From positions 1 through 23,639 of IMG/VR virus record IMGVR_UViG_3300046524_000366: a stretch of DNA of 23,639 nt, one strand, 5' to 3'. Numbering within the stretch: position 1 is the stretch's first letter; each line of letters begins with the position of its first letter. Below are positions 3,070 through 20,432 of this stretch, in pieces. Source of the DNA: a virus. Under the pieces are notes generated by a model. It was not told the DNA's origin. It saw nothing but the letters and a program-made list of their open reading frames with translations, and ran no database searches. A program made the translations under genes and the position numbers.

Positions 3070-3882
3070 TCAGGCCTTCCCGACCAGTTTGGCCAATTCA
3101 GGGAAACGATCCACGTACCAGTGAGGCTGTGTCTCGCGGGGGCATTGAGGACTGGTGAGGTTCTTGCCGTAGGCCAGACCCTTCTCAGTCACCGACCAGA
3201 AGTCGACCATTTCCTGCTTTGAGTTCTTGCGCTGGAGCTGCGTGAGGAAACCATGGGCTTCCAGTAGTTTGTTAAAGGCTGGTGCGGACGTGCGCAGGTC
3301 GAAGTCTTTGATGAGAGCAGTAACGGCCTTGGTCGGCATGGAGGTGCCGCCAGTTGCATCGGGCGCAGCGTCGACGGCGTAGCCAGGCAGGAACTTGGCA
3401 TCTAGTCCATTGTTGGCGGCGATCTTTGCCAGCATCATCATCTTGCTTGACGGTGCCGGTTTCAGGAGGCGATCGAAGCACTCCAGAATGGCGAGCTCGC
3501 CGACAATCTTTGAGTTGTTGGCGGGAAGAGCGGCTTGTGCTGCGACAACACGCTCGAGCTCTTGCCAGCGATCCACAAGCTTCGATGTGAACTCCGGCGA
3601 GAGCTGAGCGACGATTACGTAGCTGTCACGCTCGCAGATGTTGTAGATACGGGTGGCGCGCGCGCGACCAAGTTTGTCCCTGGACCATTCATCCTCAGAT
3701 TGAGGATGGACCAACCCGCTAGCGGCCAAGTCCTCAATGGTGCGCTTTACGTTGTCGTGGCGCTTGCCGGTGACATTCGCGATTTCGCGGGAAGACATCG
3801 TGCTGCGCGACACGTTTTCAGAATTCGAAAAACGCGTCGCGACATTGTTGGGGGGATTGACGAGATTTGATTGTGTATTCAT
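3070..3882 (-). CDS. Rha-family phage regulatory protein
   Basis: This 270-residue protein has an N-terminal Rha-type domain (about 25-115) with TMSSREIANVTGKRHDNVKRTIEDL, a SYVIVAQLSPEFTSKLVDRWQELE helix, and basic residues between them. Rha-type proteins are phage regulators or antirepressors with a winged-helix-like fold. The C-terminal 130 residues contain a second possible DNA- or ligand-binding segment (PTKAVTALIKDFDLRTSAPAFNKLLEAHGFL). I chose the ATG at 3882 because GAGG lies five bases upstream; a 29-residue upstream extension is open but overlaps the YmfL-like gene and lacks a ribosome site. It is the third gene of the leftward operon, just before the replication gene. Confidence 0.8.
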   Translation of the reverse strand: MNTQSNLVNPPNNVATRFSNSENVSRSTMSSREIANVTGKRHDNVKRTIEDLAASGLVHPQSEDEWSRDKLGRARATRIYNICERDSYVIVAQLSPEFTSKLVDRWQELERVVAAQAALPANNSKIVGELAILECFDRLLKPAPSSKMMMLAKIAANNGLDAKFLPGYAVDAAPDATGGTSMPTKAVTALIKDFDLRTSAPAFNKLLEAHGFLTQLQRKNSKQEMVDFWSVTEKGLAYGKNLTSPQCPRETQPHWYVDRFPELAKLVGKA

Positions 3883-3906
3883 TATTGCCTCGCTGATGTA
3901 GCAATG

Positions 3907-3932
3907 AGCCAGGCCACGAACCTGGCTTTTTT
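3907..3932 (+). terminator. Rightward intrinsic terminator, antisense to the leftward operon
   Basis: AGCCAGG (3907-3913) and CCTGGCT (3921-3927) form a 7-bp stem with a 7-base loop, followed by six T (3927-3932) on the plus strand. All genes here are on the minus strand, where the hairpin has no U-tract after it. It should therefore stop plus-strand (antisense) transcripts moving toward cro and cI, while leftward transcription passes. Confidence 0.65.
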
Positions 3933-3943
3933 GTGCCTGCGAT

Positions 3944-4411
3944 TTATGCGCGGGCTTTATGCAACTCAATCACCGCCCCGATAGCCTCAAGGCTCGCCGA
4001 CATGTACTTGGCGTGCAGGGCGCGGATCTTCTTTGCTTCGTTCGAGTCGATCTCGCCGTCTTCCAAAGCGGAAGCCACCATCTGGTCAAGAGCGCCACGC
4101 TGAGCGGATGCAGCCAGCGAGCGCTGGTACAGATCAACGTTGTCCAACTCCCCCGCTTCCGGGATCTTTACGAACACACCGCCGTACATCGCGCAGATGT
4201 AGTCCGGCAGATGCTCGGTCTTGGTCTCACATTCCAGTACGTGGATCTCGACATCGCTGAGCGGCTTGCACCCGGCGGTTTCATAGATCTGGTTCTCCAG
4301 GCGCTTGTCCTTGATGCCAAGGCGAGCAGCTGCGCAATCCATCCCGCCAGGGAAAGCGTTGGACACGGCCGCCATTACTTGGCGGCGGGTCTCTAGTACG
4401 GGCGTTTTCAT
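3944..4411 (-). CDS. CII/YmfL-like phage regulator
   Basis: This 155-residue protein sits second in the leftward operon, after Cro and before Rha, the usual place of a CII-type regulator. The N-terminal half has a helical DNA-binding-like layout (RRQVMAAVSNAFPGGMDCAAARLGIKDKRLENQIYE) typical of YmfL/CP76-CII-like phage regulators. The segment KPLSDVEIHVLECETKTEHLPDYICAMYGG fits the same family. The C-terminal half is helical with an acidic stretch (ALEDGEIDSNEAKKIRALHAKY). Such proteins are expected to activate repressor or integrase promoters during the lysogeny decision; that role is inferred. No promoter with a TTGC-N6-TTGC lambda CII box could be shown nearby. Confidence 0.65.
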   Translation of the reverse strand: MKTPVLETRRQVMAAVSNAFPGGMDCAAARLGIKDKRLENQIYETAGCKPLSDVEIHVLECETKTEHLPDYICAMYGGVFVKIPEAGELDNVDLYQRSLAASAQRGALDQMVASALEDGEIDSNEAKKIRALHAKYMSASLEAIGAVIELHKARA

Positions 4412-4475: not shown

Positions 4476-4718
4476 TCAGGCGGCTTCTACTGCCTGCTGC
4501 TTAGTGCCACGCACATACGCCCAATCAATGTCTGGGCGCAGTTGTTCGCAGGTGACCTGGCCCTGGCTTTCCCGCTCAATGTTGATTGCGAGGGACGCGC
4601 TTGGCCGGCGATTGCCGTATGCAACCTGCTTCAGCTGACCTGGGGTGGTATTGCACGCCGTTGCGAATGCCAGCAAAACCTCGGTTTCGAGCGGCTTCAG
4701 AAATTCGTGCAGGTTCAT
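4476..4718 (-). CDS. Cro-like/YdaS-type HTH regulator
   Basis: This 80-residue protein is divergent from the CI-like repressor and first in the leftward operon, the Cro position. It has a helix-turn-helix of the type ALLAFATACNTTPGQLKQVAYGNRRPSASLAINIERES, close to Cro and YdaS antitoxin-like regulators. Start ATG at 4718-4716 has AGGAGG five bases upstream; an in-frame GTG two codons earlier lies on top of that ribosome site and is unlikely. It probably binds the TTAGC-N4-GCTAA operators at 4745-4798 and opposes the repressor. A 64-base stretch separates its stop from the next gene. Confidence 0.8.
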   Translation of the reverse strand: MNLHEFLKPLETEVLLAFATACNTTPGQLKQVAYGNRRPSASLAINIERESQGQVTCEQLRPDIDWAYVRGTKQQAVEAA

Positions 4719-4741
4719 ATGCACCTCCTTTAATAGCCGCC

Positions 4742-4770
4742 AGATTAGCGTTTGCTAATGTGCGAAGCAA
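4742..4770 (-). promoter_or_regulatory. PR-like promoter for the cro operon
   Basis: On the minus strand, TTGCTT (plus coordinates 4765-4770) and TAATCT (4742-4747) are 17 bp apart. The operator at 4745-4758 fills the spacer and overlaps the -10, so repressor binding would block RNA polymerase. The same arrangement occurs at the rightward promoter near 7095-7122, which supports the call although the hexamers are only partial matches. Confidence 0.55.
4745..4758. promoter_or_regulatory. Repressor operator OR1-like
   Basis: TTAGCGTTTGCTAA is a 14-bp palindrome (TTAGC-N4-GCTAA). Closely related copies occur at 4785-4798, 7081-7094 and 7106-7119 and nowhere else that I noticed. This is the pattern expected for CI/Cro operators. 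Confidence 0.75.
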
Positions 4771-4784
4771 TAGCAATCCGTAAT

Positions 4785-4798
4785 TTACTGATTGCTAA
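4785..4798. promoter_or_regulatory. Repressor operator OR2-like
   Basis: TTACTGATTGCTAA keeps a perfect right half (TTGCTAA) and a degenerate left half of the operator. It lies 40 bp from the first operator and 20 bp before the repressor ATG. It is therefore well placed for autoregulation of the repressor promoter, for which no convincing -35 was found; TAATTT at 4781-4786 is a possible -10. Confidence 0.6.
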
Positions 4799-4818: not shown

Positions 4819-5376
4819 ATGGATATCAACGAAATGCGCATACGGGCGCTCCGCCAATTAATAGGCGACAGCCAGCTGAAGGACTTCGCGAACCAGCACG
4901 ACTTGGACGCGTCCTACATCTCTCAAATTCTTAATGGCCATAGGTCTTTCGGAGAGAGAGCTGCTGCAAATATGGAAAGAAAAATTGGCCTGCCAAAAGA
5001 CTATCTGGCGAGGCCCGCCGTTGAGTCTGAATCAGATACCCCTACATCTCGAGTCAGCGCCGCGGTAGGAACTTCCTTCGTGGCTCCTGCTCTAGCCAAA
5101 ACGATTGCAATCGCGATTTCCGAGGGGCGGCTGAGCGCGACTGATGTTGAGATGCTTAGAAAGCTTGTCGCGCATCTGATTAAGAAAAACGAAGCACAAA
5201 CAATTGCCTCCGTTCCGGAAAAATTAGGCAGCCTTACGGATGCTGTGCTTGCCGGATCACAAGACGGAGAAAATGTTGATGACATGCTCAGGATGCTTCA
5301 GCACGGCCTGAAGAAATCGCAGTCTACGGATAGCGCTAAGAAAGATGAACCAACCAAAAAGAAACGCACTAACTGA
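4819..5376 (+). CDS. CI-like repressor without self-cleavage domain
   Basis: This 185-residue protein has a lambda-CI-type helix-turn-helix near residues 19-42 (QLKDFANQHDLDASYISQIL), followed by NGHRSFGERAAANMERKIGLP, a common phage-repressor signature. Residues 85-165 are helical, probably for oligomerisation. The tail (166-185) is rich in Ser, Thr and Lys. There is no Ala-Gly cleavage site or Ser/Lys S24 peptidase core, so RecA-stimulated autocleavage is not expected. ATG 4819 is the first methionine in frame; an upstream TTG lies inside an operator. A GGAAG at 4801 is distant, so translation may be weak or leaderless. It is divergent from cro and overlaps the kinase gene by 32 bases, so both are made from one message. 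Confidence 0.85.
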   Translation: MDINEMRIRALRQLIGDSQLKDFANQHDLDASYISQILNGHRSFGERAAANMERKIGLPKDYLARPAVESESDTPTSRVSAAVGTSFVAPALAKTIAIAISEGRLSATDVEMLRKLVAHLIKKNEAQTIASVPEKLGSLTDAVLAGSQDGENVDDMLRMLQHGLKKSQSTDSAKKDEPTKKKRTN

Positions 5377-6139
5377 TCCGGTTCTGGGTGTCTATGTAAA
5401 TGGCGATGCCATTGAAGACAAAGAGCTTAGGGGGCAGCACCCCCTTTTTTATGGACTTGTCCGCTTTCCTGGTGGGCACCAGTACCATGCATATGTGAAG
5501 CTGCTACCGCCAAAGCAAATGTATGCCGAGGTGCTAAGCTCGCTCCTCGGGCGATACCTAGGGCTCCCTATTCCATACACTTCTGTAGTTGTAGCTCGAG
5601 GCTCTCAAGTCGGAGTTACTACCCCGAGAGTCATATGCCTCGCCAGTGTCGATACGGGCGCTAAGCCGATTGCTAGGATTGTCAGGCCGGATGAAGTCAG
5701 TCACGTATTGAATACCTGGTCTAGCAAACGAGTTTCCGTTGTCTTCGATGAGCTGATAGCCAACGCTGATCGAAACCTCAGAAATGTTCTGCTAGGGGCA
5801 GATGGAAAGCTTTGGCTTATTGATCATGAGGAAGCTTTAGGTGATTCGCTGACAGCACCTCATCGCGCCATCTGCAATCACTTGCTGAATCGACTAATCC
5901 AAGATGTTAGCGAATTTGAAAAGCGCAGAAGCGCGCAAATGATCAACGACGAAGCACTGCCACTGAACGAATGTGACTTCGGAGCTCATGCAGAGATTGC
6001 GTTACCAGGACCCTGCCAGGTTTCTGTCGAGCATGTCCGGGATGTGGTGGCGTTTTTGCAAGCGCGAGTACATCATATCCCGAACCTGATCGGTGGAGGA
6101 ATGCACCTAAGGCAAGGCGCACTTGGACTAGCCCAATGA
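5345..6139 (+). CDS. HipA-like kinase (HipA_2 type) encoded in the immunity operon
   Basis: This 264-residue protein matches the short HipA-like kinase family. YVKLLP (K52) is the likely ATP-binding lysine, and E62 on the next helix is its probable partner. FDELIANADRNLRNVLL (134-150) gives catalytic D142 and metal-binding N147. LWLIDHEEAL supplies D160 for Mg. It lacks the N-terminal domain and the large C-terminal half of full HipA (about 440 residues). HipA-type enzymes are Ser/Thr kinases, best known from toxin-antitoxin modules paired with an HTH antitoxin. Here the HTH partner is the phage repressor, whose gene overlaps by 32 bases; the next gene overlaps by four. The substrate is unknown; the repressor itself is an obvious candidate. 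No PI3/4-kinase or other family fits better. Confidence 0.8.
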   Translation: MNQPKRNALTDPVLGVYVNGDAIEDKELRGQHPLFYGLVRFPGGHQYHAYVKLLPPKQMYAEVLSSLLGRYLGLPIPYTSVVVARGSQVGVTTPRVICLASVDTGAKPIARIVRPDEVSHVLNTWSSKRVSVVFDELIANADRNLRNVLLGADGKLWLIDHEEALGDSLTAPHRAICNHLLNRLIQDVSEFEKRRSAQMINDEALPLNECDFGAHAEIALPGPCQVSVEHVRDVVAFLQARVHHIPNLIGGGMHLRQGALGLAQ

Positions 6140-7017
6140 TAGAGCAAGAGACAGATTTCACCGGATTCCCTGACCTGCCCTCTTACCATGCTAATTGGGC
6201 AGCTGTGTATATGGAGCCCATTGTCCAGTCAGGCGAGAGGCTCACTATCGGGGTTGTTGCCACTGACGGGAACGATCTAGCTGGTCAGTTAGCGATTTCT
6301 GACAAGGCCATGGAGTGTCTCTACGGTGAGGCCGCTCCAGGCATGAGGGCAATGATGGAACTCGCCCTCCAAAGAGCTCTTGAATTTGCCGGGTCAGGAT
6401 TTAGCGGGGTTTTTTCAAGTGGCATCCACGGCGTCTCCATTAGTAAGCGGCGAGAGGCAATCGGAGAGGATTTAGACGACGTCATCCTGCAGGGTATTAG
6501 TCTTACTTCTAGTCTGTGCGATCTCCATGCCGATGGCGTAGTCGAAAATGGTTACGATCGGACAAGCTACTGGCAGCGAATGAGAGTCGCAATGGCGAGG
6601 GTCAATCCCGCCCTGGCTAGAAATTTTGGACAGCATGTCCCTGTCACTATTAAAGGCTCTGAAATCTCCCTACCTTGCGATTACTTTTCTTCGGCGCTGG
6701 CCGTGAATATATGCGGGATGCTACCTGGCGCCAGGCAAAGTAATTTGTTTGATATCGCCAGTTCGCGTATTACCCGCCTTGAGCAGCTGAAGAGACATGA
6801 TTCTTTGATCGGTCACGATCAGAAGGCATCCCTGCTCCTTGTTACGCCCTCAGAATTACAGATCGCTAATCTTAAGGCGTCCAGTCGCAAGTCCTTCAAC
6901 GAAAAGATCTTGTTGCTCCAAGATATGGTCGAAGATCTCAATTTCAGCCTAATTCAGGTGCGAAGCCCTACGGAGGGGGCCAAATCTCTAGATAATTTAG
7001 AGAAATCAGCCGCTTAG
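6136..7017 (+). CDS. Third immunity-operon protein, unknown (possible DUF3037-like N-terminus)
   Basis: This 293-residue protein starts at an ATG overlapping the kinase stop (ATGA, 6136-6139) and ends 20 bases before a strong terminator, so it belongs to the repressor-kinase operon. The N-terminal ~95 residues contain YHANWAAVYMEPIV and GERLTIGVVA (33-42). This resembles, from memory, DUF3037 proteins, which I recall next to HipA-like kinases. The central part has many Ser and Gly residues (SGFSGVFSSGIHGVSISKRRE). The C-terminal 90 residues are helical and charged. No signal peptide, membrane span or catalytic motif is visible. It could be a kinase substrate, a kinase regulator or a repressor partner; the sequence does not decide. 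Confidence 0.75.
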   Translation: MIEQETDFTGFPDLPSYHANWAAVYMEPIVQSGERLTIGVVATDGNDLAGQLAISDKAMECLYGEAAPGMRAMMELALQRALEFAGSGFSGVFSSGIHGVSISKRREAIGEDLDDVILQGISLTSSLCDLHADGVVENGYDRTSYWQRMRVAMARVNPALARNFGQHVPVTIKGSEISLPCDYFSSALAVNICGMLPGARQSNLFDIASSRITRLEQLKRHDSLIGHDQKASLLLVTPSELQIANLKASSRKSFNEKILLLQDMVEDLNFSLIQVRSPTEGAKSLDNLEKSAA

Positions 7018-7036: not shown

Positions 7037-7062
7037 AGCCCGCCAATGAGCGGGCTTTTTTT
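7037..7062 (+). terminator. Terminator of the repressor-kinase operon
   Basis: AGCCCGC (7037-7043) pairs with GCGGGCT (7050-7056) around a six-base loop, followed by seven T (7056-7062). It is a strong rho-independent terminator that separates the immunity operon from the rightward early promoter just beyond it. Confidence 0.9.
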
Positions 7063-7080: not shown

Positions 7081-7094
7081 TTAGCAAATGCTAT
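7081..7094. promoter_or_regulatory. Repressor operator OL2-like
   Basis: TTAGCAAATGCTAT matches the TTAGC-N4-GCTAA operator at 13 of 14 positions. It lies 25 bp from the next copy and just upstream of the PL-like -35 hexamer. Confidence 0.7.
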
Positions 7095-7122
7095 TGCCAT
7101 TCAATTTAGCAGTTGCTAATTT
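7095..7122 (+). promoter_or_regulatory. PL-like promoter of the rightward early operon
   Basis: TTGCCA (7095-7100) and TAATTT (7117-7122) are 16 bp apart. Operator 7106-7119 sits in the spacer and overlaps the -10, the same design as the PR-like promoter at 4742-4770. It should drive the genes up to the integrase and be shut by the repressor in the lysogen. Confidence 0.65.
7106..7119. promoter_or_regulatory. Repressor operator OL1-like
   Basis: TTAGCAGTTGCTAA is a palindromic TTAGC-N4-GCTAA site inside the PL-like promoter. With the three other copies it defines the immunity specificity. Confidence 0.75.
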
Positions 7123-14387: not shown

Positions 14388-15230
14388 TCAAGAATTAGTC
14401 GAGCGCTTTTCGAGTTCGATGTGTGACCAAATACGGCTACAGGCAATCATTTTTTCACGCCATGGCTTGATTCGGTCATCGAGAGATCCTTCGTGGTCGT
14501 CCATAAAGCCTGCATGCAGTAGCGGCTCAAGATAAATAACATACTCAGCTGTGAACATTGCTACATACCACAGCATAAGCCGCTCACTTTCAGAAAGCTG
14601 AACACGCAAAACTCCTAGTGAAAACCGTTTAAAATCTTCACTTGATTGCTCTTTTAGAATGAACGCTAGTGCTAAAAACACAGAATCCAAAAAGAGCCCC
14701 ATTGAAGGCCACTTGTCTTTTCTCCACTTTCTAAATGCGTCCTCAGCTGATTCGAAAATATCCATGTCGCTGTTATTTATTTGATCGCTAATGCGAACCC
14801 GCCGAGAAAGCGAATCCCTTAGGTTCATAGCTGCATGATGCTGAGCCTGATGCCCATAGACGTACTCATCAGGTTTTGCTCCAACGTATGCAGTAGTGAG
14901 CATCTTTGTACTTTGGGCATTTTCATTCATCAGGCCAATCAACTGAAACAGGCGCTGTTCCCGTAGCTGCTCTATGTGCCTCCTCTCGCCTTCTTCATTA
15001 GCTTCAATTTGAGTCCTGAGAGTATAAAGAATCGCAACGAAAGCAAAAAAAGAAAATATAGGATTTAGAACTCCGCCGAAATAGTCGCCAAACTGACCCC
15101 ACTTATCTTGTTCTGAAAGAACATTAAGAGAAAACTCCCATATATACCTACCCGCAACAATCACTATTACCGATAGCGCAGTAACTGTCACTAAAAACAA
15201 AACCTTATCAAGCTCCTTAAGCTTAGACAT
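14388..15230 (-). CDS. Putative AbiC-type abortive-infection membrane protein (cassette 1)
   Basis: This 280-residue protein is antisense to the early operon and has two N-terminal transmembrane helices (about 11-30 and 53-71). Between them lies WGQFGDYFGGVLNPIFSF (44-61), the hallmark of the putative AbiC-like phage abortive-infection family. A charged coiled segment (about 76-95) leads to a helical cytoplasmic domain (100-280). Base composition is clearly AT-richer than the flanking genes, a sign of separate acquisition. It is probably expressed from its own promoter in the lysogen to block other phages; target unknown. A shorter relative lies at 19785-20432. Confidence 0.8.
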   Translation of the reverse strand: MSKLKELDKVLFLVTVTALSVIVIVAGRYIWEFSLNVLSEQDKWGQFGDYFGGVLNPIFSFFAFVAILYTLRTQIEANEEGERRHIEQLREQRLFQLIGLMNENAQSTKMLTTAYVGAKPDEYVYGHQAQHHAAMNLRDSLSRRVRISDQINNSDMDIFESAEDAFRKWRKDKWPSMGLFLDSVFLALAFILKEQSSEDFKRFSLGVLRVQLSESERLMLWYVAMFTAEYVIYLEPLLHAGFMDDHEGSLDDRIKPWREKMIACSRIWSHIELEKRSTNS

Positions 15231-15302: not shown

Positions 15303-15905
15303 ATGTCCGCACAACAGAAGAAACACCCCTTCGATTTCAAAACTCAATACGGACTCGGCTTCAGCACTCAGGACGATGAGATCGTTGTCGACTTCTTCTG
15401 CGGTGGTGGCGGCGCCGGTACCGGGCTGGAGATGGGCTTGGGCCGAGCGGTGAACGTCGCGAAGAACCACAGCCCGCAGGCGATCAGCATGCACACCGTG
15501 AATCACCCAGGCGCAGTGCACTACACCACCGACGTGTTCGAGGGTGATCCGGACACCGAATGCAGCGGTAAGGCCGTGGGCTGGTTCCATATGTCGCCCG
15601 ACTGCACGCACCACAGCCAAGCCGCCGGCGGACAGCCGCGCAAGCGAGAGATCCGGAACCTGTCGTGGATCGGGCTGAAGTGGGCCGGCAAGAAGAAGCC
15701 TCGGGTCATCAGCCAAGAGAACGTGAAACAGATCCTCCAGTGGAGACCGCTGATCGCCAAGCGCTGCAAGTCGACCGGCCGTGTGATGAAGCTGGGCGGT
15801 GCCATTGCCGAGCCTGGCGAGGTCGTGCCGGTTCACCAGCAGTTCTTGGTTCCTGACCCGAAGCGCCTCTGCAACCAGGTGAGCCAGCGCCGACGACAGG
15901 ATTGA
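15303..15905 (+). CDS. DNA cytosine-5 methyltransferase, truncated N-terminal part
   Basis: A 200-residue N-terminal part of a C5-type methyltransferase. Motif I is VVDFFCGGGGAGTGLE (28-43), the catalytic Cys lies in SPDCTHHS (C101), and motif VI is SQENVKQ (E139, N140, V141). Full members of this phage subgroup usually run past 400 residues; motifs VIII-X and the target-recognition domain are absent. The frame ends just after VPDPKR, in a non-conserved tail. Immediately beyond begins the antisense membrane gene at 15917, which seems to have replaced the missing part. GAGGA precedes ATG 15303. Enzyme activity is unlikely, so it may be a pseudogene. Confidence 0.8.
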   Translation: MSAQQKKHPFDFKTQYGLGFSTQDDEIVVDFFCGGGGAGTGLEMGLGRAVNVAKNHSPQAISMHTVNHPGAVHYTTDVFEGDPDTECSGKAVGWFHMSPDCTHHSQAAGGQPRKREIRNLSWIGLKWAGKKKPRVISQENVKQILQWRPLIAKRCKSTGRVMKLGGAIAEPGEVVPVHQQFLVPDPKRLCNQVSQRRRQD

Positions 15906-15916
15906 TACTTACAAAT

Positions 15917-16576
15917 TCACTTTGCTGATTTGGATAACAATGAGGCAAGACGCGCGAATATTTCGCTCTTCACGGCTTTTCTCTTTTTTGCGGACAAATC
16001 AACTTGAACATCAATCCAAGCGTCTTCCAACTCTATTCGAAACAAATCCCTTAGCTTGTACAAGTCTTGGATAAATTCCGCCCATAACGGTGACTTGTAA
16101 TCGAGCGAATATAGCTTATCGCATAATGTCCTATCAAGTTCGAAAACAGCCTTCGTCGAATCATCATCACGACTTAACAACAGTTCTATATTGAACGTCA
16201 ATAATGCGATTTTGTCCTGGGCCGACAAATATTCGGCAGACTGAGCAAAACCTTCTTTCTCAGTCAGATTCCAAGCGGTCGAATATATAAACTGCAGATA
16301 TTCTGAAGCACATTTTCTAAGTTCTACCATCCAGTGATGTCGAAAGCCAGTAATGTTTGCTCGTATCTGCCGCCGTTGAAACACGACTGTAACTACACCA
16401 ACTACCAAAGTGACAAAAACGCCCGCCGCGCTAGGAACTAGGACGCCGAGATCTGTATCGGTCGAAATATGGAAATAGTAGGGCAGCTCTTTGGACTCTC
16501 CGGTAGATATTAATCCGAGCGGTCTCTCATATCTAATCTCTGGTAAAGCAATCTCAAACTTATCAAAAATTTCCAT
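15917..16576 (-). CDS. AT-rich single-span membrane protein, accessory cassette 2
   Basis: This 219-residue protein is antisense to the early operon, lying between the two methyltransferases. One transmembrane helix (about 44-67, VLVPSAAGVFVTLVVGVVTVVFQ) is preceded by a short probably extracytoplasmic segment and followed by a basic stretch (QRRQIRANITGFRHHW) and a helical cytoplasmic domain. ATG 16576 has GGGAG five bases upstream; a longer frame would run into the methyltransferase 2 start and is unlikely. The layout (membrane anchor plus helical domain, AT-rich, inverted) resembles the Abi-like neighbours, but the AbiC motif is missing. A defence role is inferred from position only. Confidence 0.7.
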   Translation of the reverse strand: MEIFDKFEIALPEIRYERPLGLISTGESKELPYYFHISTDTDLGVLVPSAAGVFVTLVVGVVTVVFQRRQIRANITGFRHHWMVELRKCASEYLQFIYSTAWNLTEKEGFAQSAEYLSAQDKIALLTFNIELLLSRDDDSTKAVFELDRTLCDKLYSLDYKSPLWAEFIQDLYKLRDLFRIELEDAWIDVQVDLSAKKRKAVKSEIFARLASLLSKSAK

Positions 16577-16610
16577 ATCCGCTCCCGTAACAATTGCCAA
16601 GGATAACCAA

Positions 16611-18296
16611 ATGGCCATCACATATGGAAGCGTTTGCTCTGGCATCGAGGCGGCAACGCTTGCATGGAAGCCACTCGGCATGCGCGCCACATGGTTCGCC
16701 GAGATCGAACCTTTTCCCAGCGCGGTGCTTGCCCACCACTACCCGAACACGCCGAACCTCGGCGACATGACCAAACTCGGCGCCCAGGTGCTGGCCGGCA
16801 AGATCGCCGCACCGGACGTCCTCGTCGGCGGAACACCTTGCCAAGCCTTCAGCGTGGCCGGGATGCGCGAAGGCCTCACCGACCCGCGCGGCGCCCTCAC
16901 CATCAAATACGTGGAGCTTGCAGATGCAGTTGACTATGTTCGAGCAGGCCAGCGAAAGCCCGCCTGCGTTATCGTCTGGGAAAACGTCCCCGGCGTCCTC
17001 AGCGACAAAGGGAACGCCTTCGGATGCTTTCTTGGCGCGCTTGCTGGGGAAGACTGCGAACTGCAGCCTTCAGGGAAGAAATGGCCGGACGCTGGTTGTG
17101 TGTATGGACCCAAAAGAACAATCGCGTGGCGGATCCTGGACGCCCAATATTTCGGCCTGGCCCAACGACGCCGCCGTGTGTTCGTTGTCGCAAGTGCTCG
17201 AGACGGATTCGATCCCACCGAGGTACTTTTTGAGCGAGAAGGCATGCGCCGGGATACTGCGCCGCGCCGAGGCGAGGGGCAAGACGTTACCGGATCAGCT
17301 CCTTTCGGCCCTGCGCTCCAGTGCGGATGTGCATACACCTTCGACGAGTCATTAGGGCAGTACGGCTGCCCGAACTGCGAGGGCGACGAAGGGCCGGCGG
17401 TTGGTGTGTTCTGCGGTGTGCCTGCGTTCGGCGGCCACAGCCTTGGCGGATCTGTCGAACGGTCAGCAACGCTCACCGCGAAGGACACCCGGCTCGACAT
17501 GGAAAGCGAGACGTTCTTCGTGGCGCCAACCCTCGCCGACGGCGCACGTAAGTCTGGGGGCTACTCGCTCGACGATATCCCGATCACCGCGCCAGCACTG
17601 CGCGCTCAAGCACAGAGCAGTCACCGAGCTGACTCCGAAGCGTTCATCGTCGCCGGCACACTAAATGCCAACGGCAAGGCGGCCGGCAGCGCCACACAGC
17701 AAGATGCCGAGTCTGGTTTGCTAGTAGTGCATGGCACGCAGGATCCAGGCGTGAGCGACTCAACAGCGTTCGCCCTCGGTCGGAACAACGGACAGGAAAA
17801 CGCAGTTCTTGCTTTCTCCTGCAAGGATCACGGTGCGGACGCTGGCTCAATTGCCCCGACGCTGCGCGCGATGAACCACTCTGGAAGTCACGCGAATGCT
17901 GGTGGCCAGGTCGCTGTGTGCATCACAGGCGACATCACCCACACGCTGAAAGCCAATGGCTTCGACGGCAGCGAGGACGGGACCGGGCGAGGGCAACCAA
18001 GCGTTGCGACAGTGTCCGGCACCCTTGGTGCCAATCACGGCAACGTGAAAGCCGAACATGCATGGACGGGCCAATTGGTCGGCGGATCGAGCGTTCGCCG
18101 ATTGATCCCGCGCGAGTGCGAACGGCTCCAGGGTATGCCCGACGATTACACACTGATCCCATGGCGCGGCAAGCCAGCCGAGGATTGTCCGGACGGCCCG
18201 CGATACAAGGCGATCGGGAACAGCAAGGCGGTCACCGTCGTTCGCTGGATCGGCCGGCGCATTCTCAAGCAGATCACACCCAACCCGTACGAATGA
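16611..18296 (+). CDS. dcm: DNA cytosine-5 methyltransferase, complete
   Basis: This 561-residue enzyme methylates cytosine C5 in DNA using S-adenosylmethionine. Motif I is YGSVCSGIEAA (5-15), the catalytic loop GGTPCQAFS (C77), motif VI ENVPG (124-128) and motif VIII AQRRRRVF (184-191). Motifs IX and X appear as RRLIPRECERLQ and YKAIGNSKAV near the C-terminus. Between VIII and IX lies an unusually long (~300-residue) target-recognition region with recurring (A/S/T)xTLxA units. ATG 16611 has AAGGAT upstream. No restriction partner is seen, so it is probably an orphan methylase protecting phage DNA from host restriction. Confidence 0.92.
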   Translation: MAITYGSVCSGIEAATLAWKPLGMRATWFAEIEPFPSAVLAHHYPNTPNLGDMTKLGAQVLAGKIAAPDVLVGGTPCQAFSVAGMREGLTDPRGALTIKYVELADAVDYVRAGQRKPACVIVWENVPGVLSDKGNAFGCFLGALAGEDCELQPSGKKWPDAGCVYGPKRTIAWRILDAQYFGLAQRRRRVFVVASARDGFDPTEVLFEREGMRRDTAPRRGEGQDVTGSAPFGPALQCGCAYTFDESLGQYGCPNCEGDEGPAVGVFCGVPAFGGHSLGGSVERSATLTAKDTRLDMESETFFVAPTLADGARKSGGYSLDDIPITAPALRAQAQSSHRADSEAFIVAGTLNANGKAAGSATQQDAESGLLVVHGTQDPGVSDSTAFALGRNNGQENAVLAFSCKDHGADAGSIAPTLRAMNHSGSHANAGGQVAVCITGDITHTLKANGFDGSEDGTGRGQPSVATVSGTLGANHGNVKAEHAWTGQLVGGSSVRRLIPRECERLQGMPDDYTLIPWRGKPAEDCPDGPRYKAIGNSKAVTVVRWIGRRILKQITPNPYE

Positions 18297-19784: not shown

Positions 19785-20432
19785 TCACGACTCAGCTTCA
19801 GTATCGCCTCGACCGTTTTTTGCATATATCCTATGCATCTCTTCTCTAAACGAAATCAACATATCCTCAGCAGAGTTATAGCTATCTTGAGACACTCTTA
19901 CTGAATATCCAACAAGATCGTTAAGTAAGTTAGTGTACATAATTATTTGATTCTTTAGCGTGTTCCGTATATCTGCTTCCTGCTCTCCGCTTTCGGTTTT
20001 CAACTGAAAGGTCTGTTCAAAGGTCTTCCCAGCCCGCGCCATCTTATTTTCAGTGTGAAGAATTTGTCGATCAATCATCTGGAGGCAAGCTTCGCGAGTG
20101 CGCTCAATGTGATCGCGATCAGCGATAGAGATAGCATTATTTACTTGGCGTACCTGTGCATCGAAAGTATCTCTCTGGAGCTTCATTAAATCTTTAAATT
20201 CTGCCTGCTGAGTATCGAGCAATTGCTTTTGAAGATAAACAGTCTGCAGAACAGCAAGCAAAGTGACAAATGAAATTAGCGGACCTATCAAACCACCAAT
20301 GTACCCTCCAAAATCTGACCATTTTCCTGAATCATCAGAAAGCCCGGCATTAAACATATAAAAATAAACACCAGAAACGCCAATGATTGCGACCAGAACT
20401 ATAAAAATAGAAGCCCGCCTAAAATCTTTCAA
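19785..20432 (-). CDS. Second AbiC-like membrane protein (cassette 3)
   Basis: This 215-residue protein is antisense to the early operon. Two transmembrane helices (about 7-27 and 46-67) flank WSDFGGYIGGLIGPLISF (38-55), which parallels WGQFGDYFGGVLNPIFSF in the 280-residue protein at 14388-15230. A coiled-coil-like cytoplasmic part (about 68-120) and a helical C-terminus follow. The start is TTG 20432, the only start codon between an upstream in-frame stop and the first helix; the ribosome site is weak. It is AT-richer than its neighbours. A phage-defence role is inferred from the shared motif. Confidence 0.7.
   Translation of the reverse strand: MKDFRRASIFIVLVAIIGVSGVYFYMFNAGLSDDSGKWSDFGGYIGGLIGPLISFVTLLAVLQTVYLQKQLLDTQQAEFKDLMKLQRDTFDAQVRQVNNAISIADRDHIERTREACLQMIDRQILHTENKMARAGKTFEQTFQLKTESGEQEADIRNTLKNQIIMYTNLLNDLVGYSVRVSQDSYNSAEDMLISFREEMHRIYAKNGRGDTEAES

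Follow-up and report, generated by a model that had tools for sequence, protein, structure and literature searches.

A HipA_2-family kinase and a distant DUF3037 relative behind the repressor of a probable lambda-like prophage

Here, we report three overlapping plus-strand genes which encode an immunity repressor, a kinase of the HipA_2 family and a distant relative of DUF3037. They lie at positions 4819–7017 of the window, which is one complete virus record of 23,639 bases. Since the second protein is a HipA_2 kinase and the third is related, though distantly, to DUF3037, we assign the pair to the HipA-kinase/DUF3037 module (PDC-M66, HipAD/DS-6), of which it represents a divergent branch in phages. 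We consider it likely that the three genes form the lysogeny-maintenance operon of a lambda-like prophage, in which this pair occupies the rexAB slot and serves an abortive-infection-like defence. With this, a recently reported kinase/DUF3037 defence module also turns up in the prophage immunity regions of phages of Pseudomonas, Acinetobacter and Alteromonas, unnoticed by current annotation tools. No description of a repressor–kinase–DUF3037 operon was found in the literature searched; the work of Brenes & Laub (2025), which reportedly concerns HipAD in E. coli prophages, lies outside that coverage.

Operon layout and immunity region

The operon is flanked by a divergent Cro-like gene and a terminator. 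The repressor gene (4819–5376; 186 codons including the stop) starts at ATG 4819, TTG 4792 also being possible, and its product consists of an N-terminal HTH, no S24 domain and a helical C-terminal part with a tail. The kinase gene (5345–6139; 264 aa) overlaps the repressor frame by 32 bases including the stop (5345–5376), and the third gene (6136–7017; 293 aa), a putative antitoxin or sensor partner, overlaps the kinase gene by four bases, ATGA (6136–6139). An intrinsic terminator-like hairpin with a T-run follows 3' of the operon on the same strand (7037–7056). The ORF coordinates and the hairpin agree with the initial annotation on the three frames, their strands, both overlaps and the single terminator; its title spoke of a fusion, which is wrong, as these are three separate overlapping genes. 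A GC hairpin with a T-run early in the kinase gene (5429–5446) was considered as an attenuator and rejected, as it is absent from relatives.

To the left of the operon, on the minus strand, are the Cro-like gene, of the YdaS family (4476–4724; Pfam YdaS_toxin, E 1.5e-11; phrog_35 transcriptional repressor, E 1e-14), a CII-like activator gene (3944–4411; Pfam Phage_CP76, E 1.8e-8; phrog_101, E 1e-38) and a Rha/anti-repressor-like gene (3070–3969; Pfam Phage_pRha, E 6e-11; phrog_63 anti-repressor Ant, E 5e-23), a possible SOS-independent inducer. These three neighbours (Cro of YdaS type, CII of CP76 type, Rha/Ant-like) identify an immunity region. On the other side, to the right of the operon, are RecT, YqaJ and an integrase. 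Between the Cro-like gene and the repressor, in the position of a right operator, is an exact copy of the operator-like palindrome TTAGCGTTTGCTAA (4745–4758), accompanied by a degenerate second site with two mismatches (4785–4798). In the left-operator position beyond the operon, a copy with one mismatch (7081–7094) accompanies an exact one, TTAGCAGTTGCTAA (7106–7119). Within the window, TTAGCNNNTGCTAA is matched exactly at 4745–4758 and 7106–7119 and nowhere else, a weaker copy lying beside each of the two, and 14 matches with at most two mismatches were found in the window, against 4 expected. These palindromes bracket the operon as OR and OL do in lambda. The features of a lambda-type immunity operon, namely a divergent Cro-like gene, a CII-like gene and operator-like sites on both sides, were all found. 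Paired palindromes of their own type stand at the same two places in L005, L006, L009, L010 and L011, some of which have other HTH types, in a scan with crude controls whose stricter symmetry rule missed the window's own pair.

Elsewhere in the record, two minus-strand genes (14388–15230 and 19785–20432) share similar N-terminal membrane-spanning stretches and are inserted in opposite orientation to the early operon; one of them gives a weak AbiP match (E 5e-4), and both look like further accessory, possibly defence, genes. Two plus-strand genes for C5-cytosine methyltransferases (15303–15905 and 16491–18296) were also noted, the former encoding only the N-terminal part of the domain and being probably truncated or split.

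The kinase and its DUF3037-like partner

The kinase matches Pfam HipA_2 (PF20613) with an E-value of 3.6e-8 and 33.4 bits, above the cut-off of 27, which confirms the HipA-like family first proposed for it. The residues K52, D142, N147 and D160, already singled out in that proposal, do not vary, nor do E62 and R143, in an alignment of 35 kinases that reaches down to about 20% identity, and the kinase is apparently active, as judged from these residues. Its match to PDC-M66A is distant (PADLOC, E 3e-4); a profile–profile comparison of the phage kinases with a set that includes a PDC-M66A kinase gives E 1.4e-13. An AlphaFold (AF2) model (pLDDT 87, pTM 0.87) has PI3/PI4 kinases as its best solved neighbours (E about 1e-5), and HipA itself is not among its top 50 structural matches. 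Pfam gave no match to HipA_N or HipA_C up to E 1 and none to the Pkinase domain, and a sequence search against the PDB returned nothing.

The third protein matches phrog_21150 (E 8e-30) and has no Pfam match, which puts it below Pfam detection of DUF3037. The guess of DUF3037 in the initial annotation is right as a distant homology, seen by profile comparison only. In hhalign, a 36-member phage profile scored 30.9 against genomic DUF3037 proteins, versus 17.2 at most in 20 column shuffles; with broader alignments the probability was 95%, with E 3.9e-8 and a score of 64.7 versus at most 17.6 in 30 shuffles. Direct HMM cross-hits between the two families, also with broad alignments, gave E-values of 1.5e-13, 6.5e-5 and 5e-8, and the third protein of phage D14P is an intermediate (DUF3037, E 0.12; PDC-M66B, E 0.006). 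The DUF1829 domain present in DS-6B gave no Pfam match in the third protein. It was not counted as defining for PDC-M66, since the DUF3037 partner in the PDC-M66 pair of locus L103 likewise has no DUF1829 match. The C-terminal half of the third protein weakly resembles the XPF/ERCC4 nuclease fold (Foldseek E 2.9e-3); when the protein was considered as a possible active nuclease, by-eye inspection found no conserved residues of PD-(D/E)XK type.

The three-gene order, for which a survey of other prophages had been proposed, proved conserved far beyond chance: it recurs in more than 30 related loci among the viral contigs and genomes searched, and is the same in every Pseudomonas-type relative examined except L025. 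There (4974–5767), the kinase is split into two frames, the third gene is intact and no recognisable repressor lies upstream, so that this single broken locus is a decayed copy. More distant loci are found in Alteromonas phage P24, Acinetobacter phage qsb1 and P. aeruginosa phage D14P. The kinase gene nearly always precedes the DUF3037-like gene. On the bacterial side, Pseudomonas sp. BGI-2 has a genuine PDC-M66 pair on its chromosome, with 307/371 bits for PDC-M66A/B. Its kinase is picked up by the phage kinase profile together with many similar kinases, most of which adjoin DUF3037. A functional divergence between the chromosomal and phage branches is possible.

Several individual loci show further arrangements of the pair. 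In L086 (3089–4843), the kinase and the DUF3037-like protein are naturally fused in one 584-aa frame, which would give independent support for a physical complex of the two. In the Acinetobacter phage qsb1 (L026, 2885–4807), the pair follows an Arc-type repressor in a cluster located between tail genes; this cluster also includes a divergent Arc-like protein and a BRO anti-repressor-like gene. A protein of about 100 aa (MIATLNKxKxxLxINxQEFK...) is encoded near the pair in Acinetobacter-like prophages (L049, 3610–3912; L059, 6411–6731; L062), and a small protein, possibly CsrA-like by eye, lies between an S24 repressor and the pair in L063 (3572–3811).

The repressor and its kinase-associated tail

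The repressor matches HTH_3 weakly (E 2e-4, just below the Pfam cut-off) and phrog_5736 (E 8e-10). It gave no S24 match in Pfam and ends about 120 residues past the HTH; these Pfam and PHROG searches uphold the description of it as an HTH repressor without S24. Its HTH is 56–65% identical to those of S24-containing repressors in phages PG1 and LPPA56, in which the window's HTH type is fused to S24 and there is no kinase; the HTH types of L059 and L063 are likewise fused to S24. The regulator ahead of the kinase/DUF3037-like pair is one of three kinds: an HTH protein without S24, an HTH protein with S24 or an Arc-type protein. A strict bond between the module and non-cleavable repressors was rejected owing to the S24 and Arc contexts.

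Overlaps of 8–80 bases between repressor and kinase genes recur among relatives. Grouping the kinases at 60% identity gives 23 clusters, 12 with an overlapping repressor without S24 and five with a spaced repressor that has S24; one S24 repressor seemingly overlaps its kinase, the start of which is uncertain there. The classes for S24 and spacing come from profile hits and from the first start codon possible. On this basis, the association between overlap and absence of S24 has a Fisher P of 0.05 at 60%, 0.0009 at 80% and 0.30 at 40% identity, and is suggestive only. It had been proposed that SOS induction through RecA-driven cleavage is unlikely here because the repressor lacks S24. The lack of S24 is supported, but the idea of the module as a replacement of SOS induction is weakened, since the pair is also found behind Arc-type and presumably cleavable S24 repressors.

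The tail of the repressor (5257–5346, plus strand) was delineated from an alignment of tails and carries the motif DDMLxMLxHGxxK, a pattern found only on kinase-bearing contigs. This motif lies upstream of the overlap, in which the last ~10 repressor codons are dual-coding with the kinase, and persists while the kinases drop to 45% identity. In the overlapped class, the tail tracks the kinase and not the HTH. Between the window and L005, identity is 26% in the HTH, 51% in the tail and 87% in the kinase; between L005 and L011, it is 86%, 31% and 50%, respectively. Tail and kinase identities correlate with a Spearman coefficient of 0.53 (Mantel P 0.0002); HTH and kinase identities also correlate, to a lesser degree (0.43, P 0.0008). 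For the first tail type, a pattern-based scan that covered 2.9 million viral contigs and can miss divergent tails gave 11 loci, all on known kinase-bearing contigs. The second tail type, searched with the whole repressor and not with a tail alignment, gave four, including L170, where only the tail matches and a different HTH is followed by an overlapped kinase and the third gene. All 15 of the 15 matches to the tail searches in viral contigs carry the kinase.

The tail had been put forward as a phosphorylation substrate on account of its Ser/Thr/Lys-rich composition. This is unsupported: the residues invariant among 16 aligned tails are D, M, G and K, no Ser or Thr is conserved among them, and a conserved phosphorylation site was accordingly rejected. 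That tail and kinase stay together when the DNA-binding domain is exchanged is as expected from a functional tie between the two, and some phage repressors would then directly partner a defence kinase; hitchhiking of adjacent DNA is another possible cause of the linkage. A plausible role for the repressor is that of a third, HipB-like partner of the kinase. The earlier claim that it is the HTH partner of the kinase gains indirect support from this co-travel. In published tests on relatives, DUF3037 rather than the HTH protein is assigned the part of antitoxin (PMC12548924).

Proposed function and known systems

The functional side of our reading comes from relatives. In Retron-Sda1, defence is lost without the HipA-like kinase, deletion of the DUF3037 gene is toxic and the HTH gene is not required (PMC12548924). 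In DS-6, renamed HipAD and attributed to work on E. coli prophages, mutating a predicted catalytic residue in the kinase abolishes defence (PMC13092281). RexAB and the tyrosine kinase of phage 933W are products co-transcribed with cI that abort superinfection (PMC3564112). A defence system was among the options of the initial annotation, and the tested relatives support that choice (PMC12548924, PMC13092281). Gene anatomy, protein families, conservation, position and tail–kinase linkage are observed for the window and its relatives, whereas toxicity, inhibition by DUF3037 and defence are carried over from these relatives. In a lysogen, all three proteins would be made together through translational coupling, and the kinase would be a dormant toxin restrained by the DUF3037-like protein. 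In the overlapped class, the repressor tail would probably add restraint by contacting the kinase. As to the trigger, we suggest that a superinfecting phage might disturb the complex, upon which the kinase would phosphorylate a cell target, the infection would abort and the host of the prophage would be protected.

Alternatively, the kinase could control a lysogeny switch by phosphorylating or binding the repressor via its tail, giving RecA-free control of induction, with the third protein regulating the kinase. S24 is absent from all repressors that clearly overlap the kinase (the 12 clusters at 60% identity) and is usually kept by spaced ones, the same HTH types are fused to S24 in PG1, LPPA56, L059 and L063, and the tail tracks the kinase and not the HTH, every tail-positive viral contig bearing a kinase; all of this would suit such a switch. 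Nevertheless, we regard it as unlikely. The pair also follows S24 and Arc-type repressors, which is why the defence reading is preferred; furthermore, no tail Ser or Thr is conserved, the nearby Rha/Ant-like gene offers a simpler SOS-independent route to induction and the association of overlap with absence of S24 is not significant for kinase clusters at 40% identity (P 0.30). Addiction of the HipBA kind, in which the repressor is a HipB-type antitoxin and the kinase a toxin, so that prophage loss kills or stalls the cell and defence is secondary, would account for the tail–kinase linkage and for the hipBA-like layout, in which the HTH-tail gene immediately precedes the HipA_2 kinase gene and overlaps it. 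However, the HTH gene of the tested relative is dispensable and it is DUF3037 loss that is toxic (PMC12548924), and S24- and Arc-type repressors accompany the same pair without the tail; we therefore hold addiction to be improbable. Recombination at joints of this kind is common in mosaic phage genomes, the tail adjoins the kinase and its last ~10 codons are dual-coding, so the pair might instead be unrelated cargo (a moron) with a metabolic or signalling role, its linkage to the tail arising by hitchhiking after recombination. We give this very little credence, given that DDMLxMLxHGxxK lies upstream of the overlap and survives to 45% kinase identity and that relatives have tested defence activity.

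The defence reading in its pure passenger form leaves the near-absence of S24 in the overlapped class unexplained. As a tentative extension, which we think possible rather than probable, the operon might encode a tripartite system in which the repressor, through a dedicated tail in the place of S24, is a structural partner or sensor of a HipAD-type kinase, and superinfection, repressor loss and kinase activation form a single lysogeny/defence/induction switch. If true, this partnership would tie the sensing of superinfection to the choice of lysogeny and account for the way in which some prophages manage without self-cleaving repressors.

Several known systems resemble the operon in part. As in hipBA and hipBST, an HTH gene lies upstream of and overlaps a kinase gene, and contact between the two products is possible; unlike in those systems, the kinase matches neither HipA_N nor HipA_C and has PI3/PI4 kinases as its top structural matches, a DUF3037-like gene is added and the HTH protein is a phage repressor. 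In the cI-hex operon of phage 434, a second lysogen protein is likewise encoded on the PRM message by a gene that overlaps the repressor gene, and acts on lysogen stability, but Hex blocks RecA-stimulated cleavage and 434 has no kinase. The 933W kinase is also co-transcribed with a repressor, and aborts superinfection; however, Stk is a eukaryotic-like tyrosine kinase with no DUF3037 partner, whereas the window kinase, with no Pkinase match, belongs to another family. The lysogeny operon of lambda, cI-rexA-rexB, likewise carries a pair of accessory genes after the repressor gene and is flanked by operators, but RexA and RexB are unrelated proteins, lambda CI keeps S24 and it is the window that has a kinase. 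HipAD/DS-6/PDC-M66 likewise joins a HipA_2 kinase gene to a DUF3037-type gene that follows it with a short overlap, is homologous in both halves and, according to the cited work, is found in prophages. In comparison, the pair in the window has diverged strongly (the kinase matches PDC-M66A at E 3e-4, and the third protein escapes Pfam detection of DUF3037) and has no DUF1829 match, and it is coupled, in a lysogeny operon, to an immunity repressor whose tail is a possible third component.
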